Below are positions 8,713 to 53,815 of a stretch of 64,000 nt of DNA, piece by piece. Within the stretch, counting starts at the first letter, position 1. Each line of letters starts with the position of its first letter. The notes beneath the pieces were generated by a model that ran no database searches, was not told the origin of the DNA, and saw nothing but the letters and a program-made list of their open reading frames with translations. This DNA comes from Hyphomicrobiaceae bacterium (GTDB taxonomy: Bacteria; Pseudomonadota; Alphaproteobacteria; Rhizobiales; Hyphomicrobiaceae), in assembly GCA_030655135.1 (NCBI GenBank), contig JAURWC010000020.1:124001-188000 (forward strand), written 5' to 3'. The translations under genes and the position numbers were made by a program.

Positions 8713-8763
8713 ATGGTGGGCACTACAGGGATCGAACCTGTGACCCCTACCATGTCAAGGTAG
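8713..8763. repeat. attL: duplicated 3' part of tRNA-Val
   Basis: This 51-bp stretch is identical to 51736-51786 and contains the anticodon arm, T-arm and 3' CCA end of a minus-strand tRNA-Val. It lacks the 5' part, so it is not a working tRNA. It marks the left prophage border and represents the original chromosomal 3' end displaced by integration. Confidence 0.95.
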
Positions 8764-39163: not shown

Positions 39164-39904
39164 TTAGAATGGCGGGTCTGATTTGCCTTCCCAGGCGTCG
39201 ATCGACACCGGCACGACAGTGCGCGCTAGGGCCCTCATAGCTTCGGCATAAACCCGGATCTCATACTGGGCATGCGAGTGCACACGCAGCGACAGGAACT
39301 TCATCAGGTTCAAGAGATCGACGGTCGCGAACATATGGCTGTAGGTGGCGACCGGCAAGACGGAGCGCGCCAGCTCGCGCGGCCAGCCATCAGCCAGCAA
39401 ATCGCGATACAGCTGGAAGCAGCCCTCGCAGTAGTGGCGGACCTTTTTGGTCTGCTCCTCGCGGGCGCCCAGCACCTCGATCGACGTAATCGGATCGCGC
39501 GCTTGCTTGCTGCTGGCAGACTGGCTGCCGATTAGCACCGGGTCCGGGACATAGAACTCTTCCGGCAGTTCGCGGTAGCGCGCCGACAGTTCGTTGAATG
39601 ACCACGTCCGGTGACGATGCCACTGGCGGAAAACGAAGATCGGCGCCTTGACCTCGAAGGTGAATGTCACAGCCTCGAACGGCGTCGTGTGGTGGTTCTT
39701 CCATAGGTAATTGATCAGCTTGGTATCGCTGCCGCTATCCTCTCCTGCACGCCATGCGGCTTCGTAGGAAACGCGAGCGGCACGCACCACGGAGAGGTCT
39801 GACCCCATGCTGTCAACGAGACGGACATAGCCGTGATCTAAAACGTCGATCCTGTCGCCAGTTGATCGTCCCTCAGCTTCGAAATTTCGCGCTGCAAGTA
39901 CCAT
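39164..39904 (-). CDS. thyX: FAD-dependent thymidylate synthase
   Basis: A 246-residue protein from ATG 39904. The ThyX signature RHRTWSFNELSARY is at residues 97-110, preceded by TTPFEAVTFTFEVKAPIFVFRQW; the N-terminal VLDHGYVRLVDSMGSDLSVVRAARVS is also typical. It makes dTMP from dUMP using methylene-tetrahydrofolate and FADH2, serving phage DNA synthesis. Its start lies inside the DUF3310 gene, overlapping it by 67 bases. A longer frame to 40213 is Arg-rich and was not used. Confidence 0.93.
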   Translation of the reverse strand: MVLAARNFEAEGRSTGDRIDVLDHGYVRLVDSMGSDLSVVRAARVSYEAAWRAGEDSGSDTKLINYLWKNHHTTPFEAVTFTFEVKAPIFVFRQWHRHRTWSFNELSARYRELPEEFYVPDPVLIGSQSASSKQARDPITSIEVLGAREEQTKKVRHYCEGCFQLYRDLLADGWPRELARSVLPVATYSHMFATVDLLNLMKFLSLRVHSHAQYEIRVYAEAMRALARTVVPVSIDAWEGKSDPPF

Positions 39905-40080
39905 GCTGCCTTCTCCAAATCCTCGATGTGCTTCGCTGGGTCTTTCTTCCCGGCGCGCGAGATGTATTTGACGGCGTTGCCGTCGTTGAACCCTAGGCCC
40001 CAGGCCTCGATGACCTTGATCGCCTCGTAGGGATTGCTCTCGCCGCCGTAGTGCGATGGGTGATTGACGGCTTCGGCCAT
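39838..40080 (-). CDS. DUF3310 family protein
   Basis: An 80-residue protein with the full DUF3310 pattern: VNHPSHYGGESNPYEAIKVIEAWGL, then NAVKYISRAGKKDPAKHIEDLEKAAWYLQREIS. The family is widespread in phages, often beside nucleotide-metabolism genes, and has been called a nucleotide kinase-like protein without firm proof. It overlaps thyX and is coupled to the gene upstream by TAATG. Confidence 0.85.
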   Translation of the reverse strand: MAEAVNHPSHYGGESNPYEAIKVIEAWGLGFNDGNAVKYISRAGKKDPAKHIEDLEKAAWYLQREISKLRDDQLATGSTF

Positions 40081-40259
40081 TAATTGACCTCCTTCTCGTG
40101 TTTGCTGAGCACCAAGGCTCGGGCCTCATCCGCGTCGATACCCGCGAAAACAACGAGGTCTTCCCAGCCGAAGCCCTCGCTAGCCATCCACTCGGCGTGC
40201 TCGCGAGCCGCAATGCTGTCTTCCAGGTCGAGTTGCATGGCAGAGTGTGGCTGAGCCAT
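40080..40259 (-). CDS. Hypothetical small phage protein
   Basis: A 59-residue acidic protein starting MAQPHSAMQLDLEDSIAARE. Its stop overlaps the DUF3310 start (TAATG). No known family. Confidence 0.5.
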   Translation of the reverse strand: MAQPHSAMQLDLEDSIAAREHAEWMASEGFGWEDLVVFAGIDADEARALVLSKHEKEVN

Positions 40260-40261
40260 AG

Positions 40262-40885
40262 CTAAGCTGCCTTTCTGGTTGGGGTTTTGCGCTTTTTCTT
40301 AGGTCCGCGCCGGGCCTTTAATTTCTCTCGTGGCTCGAATGGCAGGGCACGTGGGGCGGCCGACAACCACGCAACCTCCATGGGATCACCACGGGTTGTA
40401 TCTGTCTGTTTTTCAGGGAAAATGTAGTAGACGACGGGCCTTGGGACGTATTTGCCCCGCGCCTGCATGCGTTCGAAGACAAAATCGTGGTCGTCGTCGT
40501 CCAAGGTTGAGATGCGGCGCTTTTCGACGTTGGGTTCGCGTTTGAAATACTCGCGGAATGTCCCGTAGGATGGCCGGCGAACGCGCTCTGAGGCGCACCA
40601 GTTGCGCAGAGCCGCGTCGACGTCATCAGGCAGCAGCGGGCGCACCGGGGCGTCCTTGCGGATCTTGATGATGTAGCGGGCGACCTCGCGGGTGATAACG
40701 AGGATATCCCGGTCTCGCAGCGGCGGCCGGTCATAGGAAGCGATGGCCTCCTCGATAGGAACGCTGACGGCCGGCAACTCGTGCATGACCTGCACAGGTT
40801 GGGAAACCGAACTCTCAAGCATTTCTTGCAAGTTGGGTGGGCGAACGATCTCACGCTGCCGCCCGAACCAGTCGAAAAGCATCAA
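40262..40885 (-). CDS. Hypothetical phage protein
   Basis: A 207-residue protein; starts at 40885 or the next codon (MMLFDWFGRQREIVRPPNLQ) overlap the GcrA stop. The middle (ITREVARYIIKIRKDAPVRPLLPDDVDAALRNWCASE) is helical; an acidic run (STLDDDDHDF) and a very basic C-terminus (RRGPKKKRKTPTRKAA) suggest nucleic-acid contact. No family recognised. Confidence 0.55.
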   Translation of the reverse strand: MMLFDWFGRQREIVRPPNLQEMLESSVSQPVQVMHELPAVSVPIEEAIASYDRPPLRDRDILVITREVARYIIKIRKDAPVRPLLPDDVDAALRNWCASERVRRPSYGTFREYFKREPNVEKRRISTLDDDDHDFVFERMQARGKYVPRPVVYYIFPEKQTDTTRGDPMEVAWLSAAPRALPFEPREKLKARRGPKKKRKTPTRKAA

Positions 40886-41445
40886 GCGTCCTCCATCAAA
40901 ATCTTGGACGTCATCAGAGGTGTTGCCGTGTACGTCTCCGGCGGGCGGGCGGTGACCTTGGGCGGCTGGAAACAGCGGCGCGCATGGTGCTCGCAGTAGG
41001 GGAGGCCCGGCACCTTGTCCTGGCCGCAGTAGCCATGCTCTGGCGTGCGAGGGTCGCCAATGACGTAGCGGCAGTGGTTGTCCTCGAGGTTGGCAAACGT
41101 CACGCGGGCAATGTCAGCGGCGGCGCGGGCCTCAATCGACAGCAACTCGTTGTCGGCGGTGAACTCCCGCTTCTCCCGGGCGTAGGCGTTCTGATTGATC
41201 TTGGTAAGTGTCGTGCGCAGGACGACACGGGCGGGGTTGCGCTTCTTGCTGGCGCGCAACCGGCCCTTGGGGTTGCGGGCGCCACGTAAGGCAAGGCCCT
41301 CGCGGTGCACCTTGCCGATGATGGCGTTGCGCGAAAATCGCGTGTGGAATTTGCTGTTGATCTGCTCCGCGGCCAGGGAGGCGCTAACGCCGGTTGCCCA
41401 AACCTTTTTGAGAAAATCAACCCTCTCATCGCTCCAACCGGACAT
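40882..41445 (-). CDS. GcrA-family cell-cycle regulator, phage-encoded
   Basis: A 187-residue protein. The N-terminal HTH of the GcrA family is clear: GWSDERVDFLKKVWATGVSA, then FSRNAIIGKVHREGLALRG (residues about 38-56). The C-terminal part has the family's cysteine cluster: NHCRYVIGDP, HGYCG, GLPYCEHHARRC. Host GcrA binds the main sigma factor and activates promoters with methylated GANTC sites. This copy lies in the early left operon after the Cro-like gene, so it may redirect host RNA polymerase. Slightly longer than typical GcrA. Confidence 0.88.
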   Translation of the reverse strand: MSGWSDERVDFLKKVWATGVSASLAAEQINSKFHTRFSRNAIIGKVHREGLALRGARNPKGRLRASKKRNPARVVLRTTLTKINQNAYAREKREFTADNELLSIEARAAADIARVTFANLEDNHCRYVIGDPRTPEHGYCGQDKVPGLPYCEHHARRCFQPPKVTARPPETYTATPLMTSKILMEDA

Positions 41446-41475
41446 AAAATCGCCCCCGCGAAATGCTGTGATCCC

Positions 41476-41555
41476 GAAAAGAGCCGACCCCGAAGGGCCG
41501 GCCAGGTCTCGGGAGGAAACGCCCAGTCGTATGGGCCGTGCTCTGCCATCGGCAG
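41476..41555 (-). ncRNA. suhB/MmgR-type small RNA carried by the prophage
   Basis: On the minus strand the order is a 5' hairpin (GCCCA with TGGGC, 41521-41536), the single-stranded motif CGTTTCCTCCC (complement of 41511-41521), and a terminator: GCCGGCCC (41495-41502) pairing with GGGTCGGC (41483-41490), followed by TCTTTT. The two host copies at 53.5 and 53.8 kb have the same order. The motif can pair with ribosome-binding sites. The 5' end is estimated; the family name (suhB, alpha-r14 or alpha-r8/MmgR) needs a covariance search. Confidence 0.75.
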
Positions 41556-41817
41556 GGCGCCAGCGTCAGGACCAAGGGAAGGAAGCTCACGTTTCTGAGA
41601 GCTATTCGTCTCGGCGGGCCAGGTCCGGGAGAACCTGCTGACGCTGGTGCGCTACTGAGGGCTTACGCGACGCAACTTGACGCTCTCGGCTCGGTGTGAT
41701 TGCCGCTAAGACCACCTCCGCAGAGGCCCCCGCCGGACGTCATCACACCTTGGTATGCAAGGCCTGCCGATCACAAAGGCCCCCTGGAAATGCGGGGAAC
41801 GCAAATCAACGAAACAC
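41556..41817. other. Untranslated stretch before the small RNA
   Basis: No gene seen. CCAGCGTCAG (41560-41569) and CTGACGCTGG (41638-41647) form a perfect 10-bp inverted repeat with a 68-base loop. The stretch follows the Cro-like gene in the direction of minus-strand transcription, so it could hold an antitermination or processing signal. Confidence 0.35.
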
Positions 41818-42084
41818 TTATGCTGCGCGCCCTTGGCCACTTCCCCGCTTCGGGCGGACGGGATAAGGTGCGCGCAGAGCGGCATTAGCCGCGTAAATTT
41901 CTTCGACACTCTTTCCAGTCAGCGACATCACCGTGGGCCAGTGGTCTTCAGGAATGCCGATGCGGGTCCATTTTTTGACCGCCTCGGTTCCAATCGGTTT
42001 CACCGACCTCTTGCTGGCGACCGAGATCGCCTCGGGGCCGCCCGCTGCCTTGATGATTGCGCGTATTTCGAGAGTGCTATCCAT
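41818..42084 (-). CDS. Cro/YdaS-like DNA-binding protein
   Basis: An 88-residue protein from ATG 42084 (MDSTLEIRAIIKAAGG). The pattern of a short helix, GGPEAISVASKRSVKPIGTEAVKKWTRIGIPEDHWPTV, with an EAVxKWxxxGIPxxHW recognition part, is that of YdaS/Cro-like proteins. It is divergent from the repressor gene and should be the lytic-side regulator. The promoter lies so close that the mRNA is probably leaderless. Confidence 0.72.
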   Translation of the reverse strand: MDSTLEIRAIIKAAGGPEAISVASKRSVKPIGTEAVKKWTRIGIPEDHWPTVMSLTGKSVEEIYAANAALRAPYPVRPKRGSGQGRAA

Positions 42085-42092
42085 GAAGCAGC

Positions 42093-42121
42093 AGTGTATG
42101 GAAGTAATTTCCACTTTTCAA
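42093..42121 (-). promoter_or_regulatory. Promoter of the Cro-like gene with built-in operator
   Basis: On the minus strand: -35 TTGAAA (42121-42116), a 17-base spacer, -10 TACACT (42098-42093). The start would be near 42086, two bases before the ATG. The spacer holds the operator GTGGAA-N5-TTCCAT (42098-42114), the same inverted repeat as at the rightward promoter. Confidence 0.7.
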
Positions 42122-42171: not shown

Positions 42172-42795
42172 ATGAGCAAGCACTGGTCAGAACGTCTAAC
42201 CGACTGGACACTGGACAAAGGGTGGAGTTGGGCCGAACTAGCCCGGCGTACCGGCGTTCCTATTGATAGTATTCACAAGTACCGCAAGGGCGGGGTTGCT
42301 GCCCCCCGTGGTTCGATTATGGACGACCTCGCAAGGCCGTTCGGGAAGACTGGCGTAGAACTCCACTACGGCGTCCCGCGTGTTTCAGGAAACGCACAAA
42401 TCCCCTTGCTGGAGGCGAACGAAGTGGGAACAATCCAACCGTCAGATGTAATTCGTGACGTGTGGGGAGGCGTTCAAATGATGGCCGTTCCTGCCGAATT
42501 GGCAGAAAACACTTTTTCATTCAGGGTTTATGACGACGCGTGCGCACCAAAGTTCGAGGTGGGCGATATTGTGATCTGCGAGGAAGTCAGGACTGCAACC
42601 CCCGGTAAATTTGTTATCGCGAAAGTCAACGGGTTCCCTGAGGGGTTGCTGCGGCGTTACCGCCCACTGAACGCTGTGGATAACTCGCGTTTCGCCCTCA
42701 TCGCGACGAACGAGGACTTCCCGCCAATCGAAGTTGACACGAGCCATCCCGGATTTATCGTCGGACAGGTTCTCAAAGTAATAAAAGACGTTTGA
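42172..42795 (+). CDS. CI-like repressor with S24-type domain lacking the catalytic dyad
   Basis: A 207-residue protein. N-terminal HTH: WSWAELARRTGVPIDSIHKYRKG (residues 18-40). The C-terminal part matches the LexA/S24 fold: SFRVYDDACAPKFEVGDIVICE at 116-137, KFVIAKVNGFPEGLLRRYRP at 146-165. In active members the DDAC position holds Ser-Met and the LLRRY position holds Lys; here they are Ala123 and Arg161. Self-cleavage is therefore unlikely. It is divergent from the Cro-like gene, with 87 bases between. Confidence 0.85.
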   Translation: MSKHWSERLTDWTLDKGWSWAELARRTGVPIDSIHKYRKGGVAAPRGSIMDDLARPFGKTGVELHYGVPRVSGNAQIPLLEANEVGTIQPSDVIRDVWGGVQMMAVPAELAENTFSFRVYDDACAPKFEVGDIVICEEVRTATPGKFVIAKVNGFPEGLLRRYRPLNAVDNSRFALIATNEDFPPIEVDTSHPGFIVGQVLKVIKDV

Positions 42796-47435: not shown

Positions 47436-47800
47436 CACCTGAAATACTGAAAGACCTGCTGGAGAAGGTGCGGGCTCTCGACGCGCCGAATATGCACGTT
47501 GAGGCAGACATCGCACGTGGTGTGCTGGGGTGGATCAAAGACGGCGACGTCTGGAGAGACAAGCGCGGCAATGGTTTCACAGATACCAAACGCTTCACAT
47601 CCTCCCTAGACGCCTGCCTCTCCCTGCTGGGGCAGGTGCTGCCGAAAGCAGAGTGGACACGTAACCGCTATGGGCGATTTTCTATCCTTTATGGCGCCCA
47701 CTGCTGGAACAGCCATGCCGACAGCGGCGACTGCACCGCCCTTCTCGACTGCATTCTTCAGGCTCTCCTATCTCAGCAAGCAGTAAAGGAAACAACGTGA
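47432..47800 (+). CDS. Phage ABA-sandwich-like protein
   Basis: A 122-residue protein with FTSSLDACLSLLGQVLPKAEW, resembling the SxDAALxL-x-P segment of the phage ABA sandwich family, followed by ILYGAHCWNSHADSGDCTALLDCILQALL. Function unknown; such proteins are common in early phage operons. Confidence 0.55.
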   Translation: MTPEILKDLLEKVRALDAPNMHVEADIARGVLGWIKDGDVWRDKRGNGFTDTKRFTSSLDACLSLLGQVLPKAEWTRNRYGRFSILYGAHCWNSHADSGDCTALLDCILQALLSQQAVKETT

Positions 47801-50343: not shown

Positions 50344-50676
50344 ATGGGGGAGACCATGAGAATGGAGCCTTCGGAAATCGACGCCTCCAAGATCTACACC
50401 GTTAGCGGTGCGGCCCAGGCTCTCGGGATGGGCGAAGGGTTCATCCGAAAGCAGATACGAGAGAACGCGCTGCGGGCGCACCGCCTCGGTAAACGGGTTT
50501 TGAAGATCAAGGGGAGCGACCTGCAGTCATGGTTCGACGCGCAACAGATACCATCGGACGGTACGGGCTTATGCCTACCGACGACGGGTGGTTCGTCTTC
50601 TGGTACGAGCCCGACGAGCACGGCAAGCCGCGCCGCAGCCGCCGGCGCCTCGGCCTTAAGAAATCTACGCCAGTAA
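50344..50676 (+). CDS. Excisionase-like HTH protein
   Basis: A 110-residue protein from ATG 50344 (SD GGGGAAG); 50356 is another start with GGGGGAG before it. Residues about 18-60 form a MerR-type winged helix: YTVSGAAQALGMGEGFIRKQIRENALRAHRLGKRVLKIKGSDLQSWF. The C-terminal 40 residues are Ser/Ala/Thr-rich and overlap the integrase start. Next to int it is a candidate recombination directionality factor. Confidence 0.7.
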   Translation: MGETMRMEPSEIDASKIYTVSGAAQALGMGEGFIRKQIRENALRAHRLGKRVLKIKGSDLQSWFDAQQIPSDGTGLCLPTTGGSSSGTSPTSTASRAAAAGASALRNLRQ

Positions 50677-51716
50677 GCCAGGCCAAGGCGACCTTCAGGC
50701 TGTGGGTCCGATCGTTCGACGCAGCGATCAGCCAAGACCAGAAGATGACGATCGGCGTGATTGTCGCGCTCTACATCGAAAGCAAGCGCAAGGAAGGCAA
50801 GAAGCACCGCAAGATGGAATGGCAGTGGGTGCCGATGCGCGAGAAGTTCGCGGACCTGCAGCCGGCCGACCTTGAGACACCGATCGAAGTAGATGGTGAG
50901 GTCCGCACTATCTGTCACGAGTATGCGGTTGAGCGCGAAGCGGCCGGGATGGCCCGCGACACCATACACAGCGAACTCTCTTTGCTCCGCACCGCCATGC
51001 GGTGGGCCGAGAAGCGCCGAAAAGTGCCAGAGGTCTACGTGTGGGTGCCGTCGCCCGGCAAGGGTCGCAAGACAGCCCTTACGGAAGATCAACTCGTCCG
51101 TCTTCTGGGCGCAATCGTTGAGGCGCCCCCACACATCAAACTGGCGTTCCTGATTGCGCTAGCAACCGGTGCACGCAAACAGGCCATTATCGAATTGACC
51201 TGGCCTCGGGTCGACCTCGTGTTCCGCCGCATCGATTTCAACAACGGCTTGGAACGGCCCATCCTCGACACCGGCCACGGGAAGGGTCGCGCGATCGTGG
51301 ACATCAGCGACGGGCTCTATGATGCGCTCGTGCTCGCCAAAGAGTTCGCGAGTTGCGATTGGGTAATCGAATGGCGCGGCGGTCCGGTGCAGGACATCAA
51401 GAAGGGCGTCAGGGCGGTGTTCGTCGCGGCAGGCCTTGGGAAGCGCTACATGGGATTGCACGTCCTGCGCCACACGCTGGCGACCGCAGCAGCTGAACTC
51501 GGGATCGATATGCGCAAGATCCAGGTCATGCTCGGGCACGACGACATCAACACCACTGAAAAGATCTACGTCGAGTTCCGGCGTGGATATGTGCGCGACG
51601 TGGCCCAGGTTGCTGATGCCCACATTCAGCGCGTAAACGACCCGAAATACGATCAGAAGTCACATCCGTGTCTATTGATCGATGGTAGTGAGAAAACCAG
51701 CATTCTAGATGACTGA
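50529..51716 (+). CDS. int: Tyrosine integrase
   Basis: A 395-residue protein with the catalytic set of tyrosine recombinases: Arg216 (ATGARKQAI), Lys near 252, His311 and Arg314 (HVLRH), His337 (LGH) and Tyr347 (EKIYVEF). The N-terminal part has a Trp/Tyr-rich arm-binding domain (GWFVFWYEPDEHGKPRRSRRR) and a core-binding helix region. It lies 20 bases from attR and acts on the 3' part of tRNA-Val. It overlaps the excisionase-like gene by 148 bases in another frame, so ATG 50571 or another inner start is possible. Confidence 0.93.
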   Translation: MVRRATDTIGRYGLMPTDDGWFVFWYEPDEHGKPRRSRRRLGLKKSTPVSQAKATFRLWVRSFDAAISQDQKMTIGVIVALYIESKRKEGKKHRKMEWQWVPMREKFADLQPADLETPIEVDGEVRTICHEYAVEREAAGMARDTIHSELSLLRTAMRWAEKRRKVPEVYVWVPSPGKGRKTALTEDQLVRLLGAIVEAPPHIKLAFLIALATGARKQAIIELTWPRVDLVFRRIDFNNGLERPILDTGHGKGRAIVDISDGLYDALVLAKEFASCDWVIEWRGGPVQDIKKGVRAVFVAAGLGKRYMGLHVLRHTLATAAAELGIDMRKIQVMLGHDDINTTEKIYVEFRRGYVRDVAQVADAHIQRVNDPKYDQKSHPCLLIDGSEKTSILDD

Positions 51717-51735: not shown

Positions 51736-51786
51736 ATGGTGGGCACTACAGGGATCGAACCTGTGACCCCTACCATGTCAAGGTAG
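51736..51786. repeat. attR: phage-borne 3' part of tRNA-Val
   Basis: Identical to 8713-8763 over 51 bp. It completes the intact tRNA-Val gene after integration, so the host keeps a working tRNA. Confidence 0.95.
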
Positions 51787-51811
51787 TGCTCTACCGCTGA
51801 GCTAAGTGCCC
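51737..51811 (-). tRNA. tRNA-Val (GAC)
   Basis: Read on the minus strand, 75 nt begin GGGCACT and end AGTGCCC-ACCA, with acceptor arms that pair fully, a D-arm (GCTCAGCGGTAGAGC), an anticodon arm CTACCTTGACATGGTAG with anticodon GAC, and a T-arm GGTTCGATCC. CCA is encoded. The 3' 50 bases come from the phage. Confidence 0.95.
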
Positions 51812-52273: not shown

Positions 52274-52551
52274 TGGGACTCGTGACGGCTTCGCAGTCAT
52301 AGGGTTACTTACCGTTCTACCTTAGCTGGACAGTCGCAGGCTGCCAGATGATTCTGGCGTGACTTTAGTAAATGGACCATGAAGCATAGCGCGGAAGCCG
52401 TGCTTTTCAGAAAATTGTGCGTCATCACGGCACTGGCGCCAAGTTGGCATGAAGACCATGACTGCTGTGCGCGGCTGCTCGCCGCAGCGTGGACTTTGTG
52501 CGGGCGGGACGGCACTATCGTCCACTGTGCGTGAGAGAACAACTGGGCCCG

Positions 52552-53448
52552 ATGTCTATTCTACCCGCAGATCCACTGGAAGACCTGCTGCCGCCGTTCG
52601 AACTGGTGTCGACGAAAGAGCAGACGGTGCCGTTTGTTTTCTGCTCGCCGCACTCGGGGCGCATCTATCCGAACTCTTTCCTGGCGCAGTCGCGGCTTGA
52701 TGCGCTGTCGCTGCGCAAGAGCGAGGATTGCTTCGTCGACCAGTTGTTTGCCGGCGTTGCAGACATGGGTGCGCCGCTCATTGCCGCACGCTTTCCCCGC
52801 GCCTTCATCGACGCGAACCGCGAGCCGTTCGAACTCGATCCCAGTTTGTTCAACGAACCGCTGCCGGACTATGCGAATGCCCAGACGGCGCGCGTTGTCG
52901 GTGGACTGGGCACCATTCCGCGCATCGTGGCGGATGGGGAAGACATCTATGAGCGCCGCATTCCGCTCAGCGAAGCAATGGATCGCATCGACCGCTTGTA
53001 CAAGCCGTTTCACGCGATGCTGGCGTCGTTGATCGAAAACACGCGCCGGCGGTTCGGCTATGCGATCCTCATCGATTGCCATTCGATGCCGTCGACGCTG
53101 GTGGCTCAGCCGAGTTCAGCCCGGCCGGACTTCGTGATCGGAGATCGTTATGGGTCGTCGTCAGACCCGCGGCTCGTTCGCTGCCTGCGCGACGCGATCG
53201 GCGGGGTAGGGTACGATTCGCAAGCGAACAGGCCCTACGCGGGCGGGTTTATCACCGAATATTACGGGCGGCCGGCCCGAGGGGTGCACGCGATCCAGGT
53301 GGAGATCAATCGCGGGCTCTACCTCGACGAAGCCAGCATCGTGCCGACGGCGGGCTTCGAACACCTGAAAGCGGATCTGATGGATTTAGCAGCCCAGATT
53401 TTCATGGACATGCCTCGACTTATGGAGCGGCGCGCGGCTGCGGAATAG
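52552..53448 (+). CDS. N-formylglutamate amidohydrolase family protein (second copy)
   Basis: A 298-residue protein from ATG 52552 (MSILPADPLEDLLPP). Motifs: VFCSPHSGRIYP near residue 32, RFPRAFIDANREPFELDP, ILIDCHSMPST, and ITEYYGRP with HAIQVEINRGLYLDE. The metal-binding His/Glu set of the family is present. Divergent from cpdR. It shares the family but little close sequence with the copy at 1906-2739, so the two probably have different substrates. Confidence 0.87.
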   Translation: MSILPADPLEDLLPPFELVSTKEQTVPFVFCSPHSGRIYPNSFLAQSRLDALSLRKSEDCFVDQLFAGVADMGAPLIAARFPRAFIDANREPFELDPSLFNEPLPDYANAQTARVVGGLGTIPRIVADGEDIYERRIPLSEAMDRIDRLYKPFHAMLASLIENTRRRFGYAILIDCHSMPSTLVAQPSSARPDFVIGDRYGSSSDPRLVRCLRDAIGGVGYDSQANRPYAGGFITEYYGRPARGVHAIQVEINRGLYLDEASIVPTAGFEHLKADLMDLAAQIFMDMPRLMERRAAAE

Positions 53449-53490
53449 TTGTAGCGCGCCGAGGACGCAGTCGATGCCCCCCGCAGACAA

Positions 53491-53570
53491 GAAAAAAGGG
53501 CCATCCAGGAGTCTGGACGGCCCAAGTCTAGGGAGGAAACGCCCAAGGAGGGCTACGATACCGACGAGAA
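53491..53570 (-). ncRNA. suhB/MmgR-type small RNA, host copy 1
   Basis: Minus strand: 5' hairpin GCCC/GGGC (53541-53553), the motif CGTTTCCTCCCTAGAC (complement of 53526-53541), then terminator GGGCCGTCC with GGATGGCCC (53498-53523) and a T6 run (53492-53497). The order and motif are those of alphaproteobacterial suhB-type RNAs, about 75-80 nt long. The 5' end is estimated. Confidence 0.8.
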
Positions 53571-53636: not shown

Positions 53637-53740
53637 GCAGCTAGAACCAGGAGGACGAGGTAAATTTTACAGACCACCGGCCGCTAAAGCATGCCGTTGC
53701 CAAGATCTTCGTAGAACGAAGCAGCTTGCGAGTGGCTGAA

Positions 53741-53815
53741 TAAAAGAGGCCGCTCGCGAGCGAACGGCCCAAGTCTAGGGAGGAAACGCCCGTATGGGCT
53801 GCGGGTGAGATGAAG
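53741..53815 (-). ncRNA. suhB/MmgR-type small RNA, host copy 2
   Basis: Minus strand: hairpin GCCC-ATAC-GGGC (53788-53797), the same CGTTTCCTCCCTAGAC motif (complement of 53773-53788), and a terminator with arms in 53748-53769 followed by TCTTTTA. It shares an exact 28-bp core with copy 1 (53517-53544 and 53764-53791). It lies upstream of an inositol-phosphatase-family gene on the other strand, the gene neighbourhood that gave suhB RNA its name. Confidence 0.8.

Follow-up and report, generated by a model that had tools for sequence, protein, structure and literature searches.

A class of phages carries small RNAs of the ar8 type, and this class constitutes the larger finding beyond the single copy located in the window (the whole stretch of 64,000 nucleotides that was analysed). 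As judged from sequence and predicted structure, the window RNA is a divergent ar8 (suhB/MmgR/SisA)-like RNA borne by a prophage, and ar8-type copies are, by the same measures, widespread in viral genomes. The evidence suggests that phages use the RNA as a switch, perhaps also to influence the host. The reading we favour, and regard as probable, is that phages employ ar8-type RNAs as leaders that end in a terminator and stand before gated operons, and that an anti-Shine-Dalgarno sRNA is set free when transcription terminates. If correct, a family of sRNAs that occurs across most alphaproteobacterial orders would gain a widespread branch in phages and a link to a NusG-paralog antitermination switch. 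The reading would also offer a direct test of how phages share, mimic, or compete with a riboregulatory network of the host for which both targets and sponge have been described in Caulobacter.

The ar8 sRNAs of bacterial hosts (RF00519 suhB; MmgR in Sinorhizobium, SisA-D in Caulobacter) share with the phage RNAs a weak hairpin, a putatively single-stranded UUUCCUCCC, and a terminator-like hairpin followed by a U-tract. The phage copies differ from them in being phage-borne and often placed in front of phage operons. Excerpts of PMC12559287 describe the four Caulobacter RNAs SisA-D as having UUUCCUCCCU in common and as forming Hfq-assisted duplexes with the sponge RNA CrfA; the common 10-mer is probably what SisA uses to repress its many mRNA targets. 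According to excerpts of PMC7143759, MmgR of Sinorhizobium is Hfq-dependent and tied to storage granules, and its direct target is not known. Linkage to the N-formylglutamate amidohydrolase (FGase) gene is likewise known for the ar8 family (PMC12559287, excerpts). The two host copies in the window lie between the FGase and inositol monophosphatase genes and thus have this neighbour beside them. RF00519 scores above its cut-off in 49 of 60 related genomes. Only 1.7 kb separates the host pair from the prophage. Plasmids carry ar8-like sequence too: at E <= 0.1, 72 records match, among them 21 from Azospirillum and 19 from Methylobacterium.

The sequence-only reading had placed the 14-mer GGGAGGAAACGCCC at 41511-41524, 53531-53544, and 53778-53791, where it is indeed present, and had described a common layout that all three minus-strand copies display (hairpin, UUUCCUCCC, hairpin, U-tract; Table 1). 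A search for the 14-mer allowing up to two mismatches returned three matches in the window, all exact. Shuffled windows gave a mean of 0.99 under the same tolerance and 9 of 100 reached three, so that the count alone is only mild evidence. The pattern TTTCCTCCCNAGAC occurs at exactly these three sites in the whole 4.06-Mb genome, with no occurrence of the reversed control pattern. Stems of the prophage copy differ from the host stems with pairing kept, again in line with the earlier claim. The U that had been read at the end of the window 10-mer is in fact a G (UUUCCUCCCG), and nine of its ten bases agree with UUUCCUCCCU.

Table 1. Features of the window discussed in the text (positions in the window; RF00519 cut-off, 41 bits).
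Feature	Position	Strand	Basis
Prophage ar8/MmgR-like RNA	41477..41560	-	RF00519 35.0 bits; viral model R2 40.3 bits, E 8.3e-11 in window; fold energy z = -3.09 against shuffles
Hairpin P1, GGCCC...GGGC	41521..41537	-	Sequence and fold
Anti-Shine-Dalgarno core UUUCCUCCCG (host version UUUCCUCCCU)	41510..41519	-	Sequence; motif described in excerpts of PMC12559287
Terminator-like GC-rich hairpin, UUCG loop	41482..41503	-	Fold and sequence
U-tract, four U	41477..41480	-	Sequence
51-bp tRNA-Val repeat (att), left copy	8713..8763		Repeat of tRNA-Val(gac)
51-bp tRNA-Val repeat, right copy, at tRNA-Val(gac) 51737-51811	51736..51786		Repeat
Prophage integrase gene, beside right repeat	50529..51716	+	phrog_1 7.6e-43, PF00589
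gcrA-like gene	40882..41445	-	PF07750 110.7 bits
cro-like DNA-binding protein gene, upstream of RNA	41818..42114	-	phrog_8008 E 4.5e-4; beside cI
Candidate pR-like promoter	42093..42121	-	9/12 consensus bases, consensus scan only
cI/LexA-type repressor gene, divergent	42172..42795	+	phrog_4 E 1.9e-17, PF00717, PF01381
Host ar8 RNA copy 1	53483..53560	-	RF00519 68.1 bits
Host ar8 RNA copy 2	53732..53806	-	RF00519 56.7 bits
Host N-formylglutamate amidohydrolase gene, known ar8 neighbour	52489..53448	+	PF05013 249 bits

The 5' limit given for the window RNA is provisional; the segment folded was 41474-41560. The predicted structure of lowest energy joins the end of the core to bases at and behind the U-tract, part of which the terminated RNA would not contain. 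On this prediction, termination might leave the core more accessible than read-through does. The 3' end combines a strong GC hairpin with only four U, and a simple terminator scan made no call there; a consensus scan likewise called no promoter of the RNA's own. When 120 nt upstream are included (41470-41680), the fold on this strand is a long structured arm that contains the RNA (z -4.63). Compared with host ar8 RNAs, the window copy falls below the Rfam cut-off, carries G as the tenth base of its core, has a short U-tract, and is found without an FGase neighbour.

Assignment to the suhB/MmgR type, which the sequence-only reading had proposed together with an Rfam covariance search, is upheld by covariance models in kind but not in strength, since the copy matches RF00519 with 35.0 bits against a gathering score of 41. 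The match has E 8.3e-6 in a 301-base search and is the third best RF00519 site in the 4.06-Mb genome. RF00519 finds a match at E <= 10 in all 14 control genomes and at E <= 0.01 in two of them (Caulobacter, Thermus), so that the genome-wide E of 2.7e-5 for the window copy is meaningful without being overwhelming. A second model, R2, was built from 49 viral copies, none of them from the window. It scores the three ar8 copies at 71.1, 54.8, and 40.3 bits, and these values owe part of their size to the core itself because R2 was seeded by copies with an exact core match. The next best site (11.8 bits, 47600-47638) was rejected, as it reads as coding sequence. Another model, R1, was discarded for a wrong consensus structure with four pairs inside the core. 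A coding explanation was also considered, given that an ORF at 41100-41549 spans the RNA; the stem covariation reported below argues against it. By DNA similarity, phage records returned no match at 1e-5 to the window gene plus RNA, and when the RNA by itself was searched up to E 10, no match was better than E 0.9. A neighbouring 207-aa prophage protein has no relative in 397 genomes, and comparison of the 381-bp leader region with the same genomes showed mainly the RNA core to be shared, plus short scattered matches.

That the RNA resides in a prophage, as had been read from the sequence, is confirmed by the integrase, the 51-bp tRNA-Val repeat at both ends, and genes for terminase, portal, and cI. 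The element spans ~8.7-51.8 kb, about 43 kb, and has the terminase large subunit, portal, and DnaD-like loader genes between the repeats. In its early region, the order is cI < > cro - RNA - gcrA, which gives the RNA the position that we take to be that of lambda tR1. The distance from its U-tract to the gcrA ATG is 31 nt. The product of the cro-like gene has no Pfam match. The neighbours, cro-like and gcrA without FGase, set the window copy apart from ar8s1, the ar8 subfamily that accompanies N-formylglutamate amidohydrolase. A search of the window for a NusG-like gene found none, and the 300 nt preceding the RNA contain no GCGGTAG. Duplex energies of the core were computed against 35 guessed prophage start sites, four of which lie at or below the background 5% mark of -20.0 kcal/mol. 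The best site reaches -22.2 and gcrA -19.7 kcal/mol, with the background 1% mark at -22.5 kcal/mol; the energies do not stand apart from background, and thus the target search within the prophage provides no evidence. As a further observation, the prophage has its own gene for a GcrA-family cell-cycle regulator directly 3' of the RNA. It also contains a thymidylate synthase-like frame (39164-40213; phrog_85 1.9e-61).

An exact-motif scan of IMG/VR with GGGCGTTTCCTCCCNAGAC yielded at least 120 stretches with at least 121 copies. Among the matches listed, the 3' part folds better than the mean of its own shuffles in 115 of 121 viral copies, the first hairpin is more stable than the mean of its shuffles in 114, and TTT follows 20-82 nt behind the core in 120; all three layout checks are passed by 108 of these 121. 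R2 matches all 120 viral loci among the matches listed (the weakest, L030, with 33.2 bits), a figure to be read in light of the 49 copies that built R2 and of the core that all loci hold by selection. On the first 40 of the at least 120 records, RF00519 matches every one at E <= 0.01 and 33 above the cut-off. In viral contig L047, two ar8 copies (348-435, 1425-1509) lie ~1.1 kb apart, each before a reading frame.

Five phage records match R2 as well, with 40.0-67.3 bits. They comprise two Bradyrhizobium phages (62.4 and 41.6 bits), in both of which packaging genes adjoin the RNA, two phages named after Microcystis (67.3 and 40.3 bits), and Bradyrhizobium phage BDU-MI-1 (40.0 bits). By BLAST, OM681334 and KY940711 among these are weak (E 0.02-0.09).

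The earlier view that selection acts on the structure of the RNA gains support from covariation in 99 aligned viral copies. In this model-based alignment, which was fitted to the structure, 119 cells hold double changes vs 40.5 in shuffles, and the covariation score is 0.350 vs 0.145 in shuffles and at most 0.145 when pairing partners are slid. Of the 74 non-redundant copies other than the 37 late-type ones described below, 57 were used, and alignment A8 took 49 of the 57.

Clustering of neighbouring frames disclosed a recurrent order: NusG-like gene, RNA, HNH endonuclease, TerS or an uncharacterised gene, TerL, and portal, the last cluster being named from its place and the annotation of OP596612 and OP596613. 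In both of these records, the RNA stands directly before HNH and terminase genes. Of the 120 loci among the matches listed, 40 have a NusG-like gene upstream of the RNA and in the same orientation. The two groups of NusG-like proteins are related to each other (hhalign 98.9%). One member scores 44.9 bits against PF02357 and another 21.7 (cut-off 22.2), and a joint profile of 16 members matches solved NusG (3.7e-29) and RfaH (1.2e-15) over most of its length. The gene is annotated as 'ABC transporter substrate-binding protein' in OP596613 and as 'hypothetical protein' in OP596612; our naming rests on the clusters, PF02357, and the profile comparison instead of these annotations. Packaging genes follow downstream in at least 33 of 120 loci among the matches listed. 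Among the 79 listed loci with at least 2.5 kb downstream, the packaging cluster is present in 25 and absent in 54, a count that is a lower bound because NusG-linked loci within the 54 have HNH or terminase genes outside the clusters. Many of the 54 are flanked by phage genes of other kinds (head, neck, portal, ParB-like, and repressor families), as read from 40 upstream and 43 downstream frames. The use of phrog_6386 as a genome marker was dropped, given matches in 135 of 150 genomes of the order and 11 of 14 controls; the best matches across the order resemble housekeeping NusG. At 1e-6, this family has no match in the window's own genome, and the housekeeping NusG may be missing from the assembly.

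Late leaders contain TAGGnTGTGCGGTAGCG and its pairing partner ahead of the core. The motif GCGGTAG, which we take to be bases 2-8 of the RfaH ops element, occurs up to 80 nt upstream of 31 of 121 listed viral copies vs 0.635 in shuffles, mostly 32-36 nt ahead of the core motif, and before none of 56 host occurrences (54 distinct contexts). Where the sequence extends 1 kb or more upstream of the copy (96 copies), 19 have both the NusG-like gene and GCGGTAG, 17 the gene only, 5 GCGGTAG only, and 55 neither. The association is marked (p 3.3e-6), with the reservation that related phages are not independent; 17 of the 36 NusG-linked copies in this set do without an exact GCGGTAG. The leader hairpin also covaries, with 15 cells of double changes vs 4.4 when shuffled (sliding by -3 still gives 11) and a score of 0.292 vs at most 0.125 when slid, for 31 of 37 late-type copies. 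The pairing of 96.5% in this alignment (A7) is flattering, as six copies (L026, L090, L110, L119, L124, and L132) were left out, partly for a hairpin that looked absent or long. Since the leader hairpin covaries, its recognition as RNA is possible too. For the ops element, a pair C3:G8 and a loop G4-A7 are described in excerpts of PMC5995543. No canonical promoter was recognised by eye before the late leaders.

A set of 30 viral loci was found via NusG-like proteins, with no use of the motif. The core TTCCTCCC lies within 1.1 kb downstream on the same strand in 26 of the 30, a proportion that is favoured by close relatives and is not bias-free, as the NusG seeds stem from ar8 loci. The longer forms TTTCCTCCC and TTTCCTCCCT occur in 25 and 24 of the loci, respectively. 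Control blocks of the same loci contain the core in 2 of 138 cases and the opposite strand in 0 of 30. After removal of redundancy, 23 of 27 loci have the core, as do 13 of 17 outside the first scan. The stretch from core to terminator varies in length (e.g., L187, L201, L205, L210, and L211). Four loci lack the core (L192, L195, L196, and L199). In L196, ~200-250 nt behind the NusG-like gene, the terminator and CCTAGACTGG are kept and the anti-Shine-Dalgarno core is lost.

Retention of the core at such loci speaks for an action in trans, and so does the behaviour of host ar8 RNAs, which pair via the core and are titrated by a sponge RNA in Caulobacter (PMC12559287, excerpts). Competition with or mimicry of the host RNAs, the function suggested by the sequence-only reading, is conjectural. 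An action in trans alone would mean that the phage RNA is transcribed by itself, shares targets, Hfq, or the sponge with host ar8 RNAs as a mimic or competitor, and stands before gcrA incidentally. We consider this unlikely, because a free-standing sRNA would not be expected to recur between a NusG-like gene and packaging genes, and because the window offered neither a promoter of its own nor an outstanding target among the prophage start sites. The opposite extreme, a conditional terminator or antiterminator-loading leader whose released RNA has no function, agrees with the ops-like leader hairpin, the NusG-like gene, the terminator shortly before the operon, and the L196 locus with its terminator at the same place. 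It is improbable to a greater degree, given that 26 of 30 loci chosen without the core have it nonetheless, although linker and stems change, and that host ar8 copies sit elsewhere and act in trans. Passive pick-up of a functionless host fragment, to which the nearby host copies (1.7 kb from the prophage), the short U-tract, and the altered tenth base might point, is very improbable in view of pairing kept despite changed stems, the presence of such RNAs in numerous viral contigs, and a location in the middle of the prophage instead of at its end.

The leader reading accommodates both sides of this evidence: viral copies often stand at operon gates beside a NusG-like gene, which suggests a role in cis as well as in trans. 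Polymerase that stops at the terminator would release a short hairpin RNA whose anti-Shine-Dalgarno core is single-stranded; like host SisA or MmgR, this RNA could pair with ribosome-binding sites. Polymerase that reads through would allow expression of the genes behind the RNA. The commonest viral form provides the anatomy for such a choice, in that the RNA follows the gene of a NusG-family antiterminator, precedes HNH-TerS-TerL genes, and has ahead of it a covarying hairpin that often contains the ops-like GCGGTAG; the corresponding actions are those these parts would be expected to exert. In the window, the RNA would gate gcrA and the genes after it within an early operon. Counting against the reading for the window copy are the missing NusG-like gene and GCGGTAG, the score below the Rfam cut-off, the altered last base of the 10-mer, the short U-tract, and the lack of a called terminator or promoter of its own.

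A more specific version of the leader reading is possible, if short of probable. Here, a phage NusG/RfaH-like antiterminator acting on the ops-like hairpin would pick between the ar8 sRNA and the long late mRNA, and an early gate behind cro would operate elsewhere, the window included. The short ar8 sRNA would then reprogram translation by anti-Shine-Dalgarno pairing in a large phage group, two members of which are known from Bradyrhizobium. Among the open-access literature matches listed, neither ar8 RNAs in phages nor a NusG-like late switch of such phages is described.

Precedents for the double use of a leader RNA exist in other phages, as excerpts on StxS and IsrK indicate (PMC7873438, PMC12197685, PMC4825925). 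StxS of Stx phages is a short RNA that runs from the late promoter to tR' and is able to act in trans (PMC7873438, excerpts). It resembles the phage ar8 RNAs in arrangement, as a terminator-ended short leader before an antiterminated phage operon, with no evident kinship in sequence. The antiterminator of Stx phages is of the Q type. The place of StxS is late, whereas that of the window RNA is early; compared with a StxS or lambda 6S-type leader, the window presents the short RNA, the terminator-like hairpin, and the operon, and a NusG-like antiterminator gene was not found in it. IsrK of the Gifsy-1 prophage exists in two forms, produced by termination or read-through, with an antiterminator gene upstream (PMC4825925, excerpts). 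The comparison again concerns arrangement; AntQ of the IsrK system is Q-like, not NusG-like. The RfaH-ops system shares a NusG-family protein and GCGGTAG with the late type, the latter as an enriched sequence. The phage system differs in that the protein is phage-encoded and adjoins its presumed target, and in that GCGGTAG lies inside a longer RNA hairpin and is absent from the window. Read-through of intrinsic terminators is described for the NusG paralog LoaP in excerpts of PMC7819879.

An early context such as that of the window was rejected as a general rule. Ten viral records found via the window GcrA gave two weak RF00519 matches (27.9 and 21.2 bits) and none above the cut-off, so that a gcrA neighbour is not general. 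Arrangements like that of the window do recur, though rarely among these loci. Only L053 among the 120 loci listed has a strong match to the window cI, with divergent cI (2.2e-24 to that of the window) and cro (6.9e-13) genes directly before the RNA. In L113, the RNA comes after a gene for a cI-like repressor (phrog_4 5.5e-15) and a small frame, and a DnaD-like gene follows it. In L062 and L065, gcrA- and DnaD-like genes lie behind the RNA, and the sequence around the RNA is common to both.
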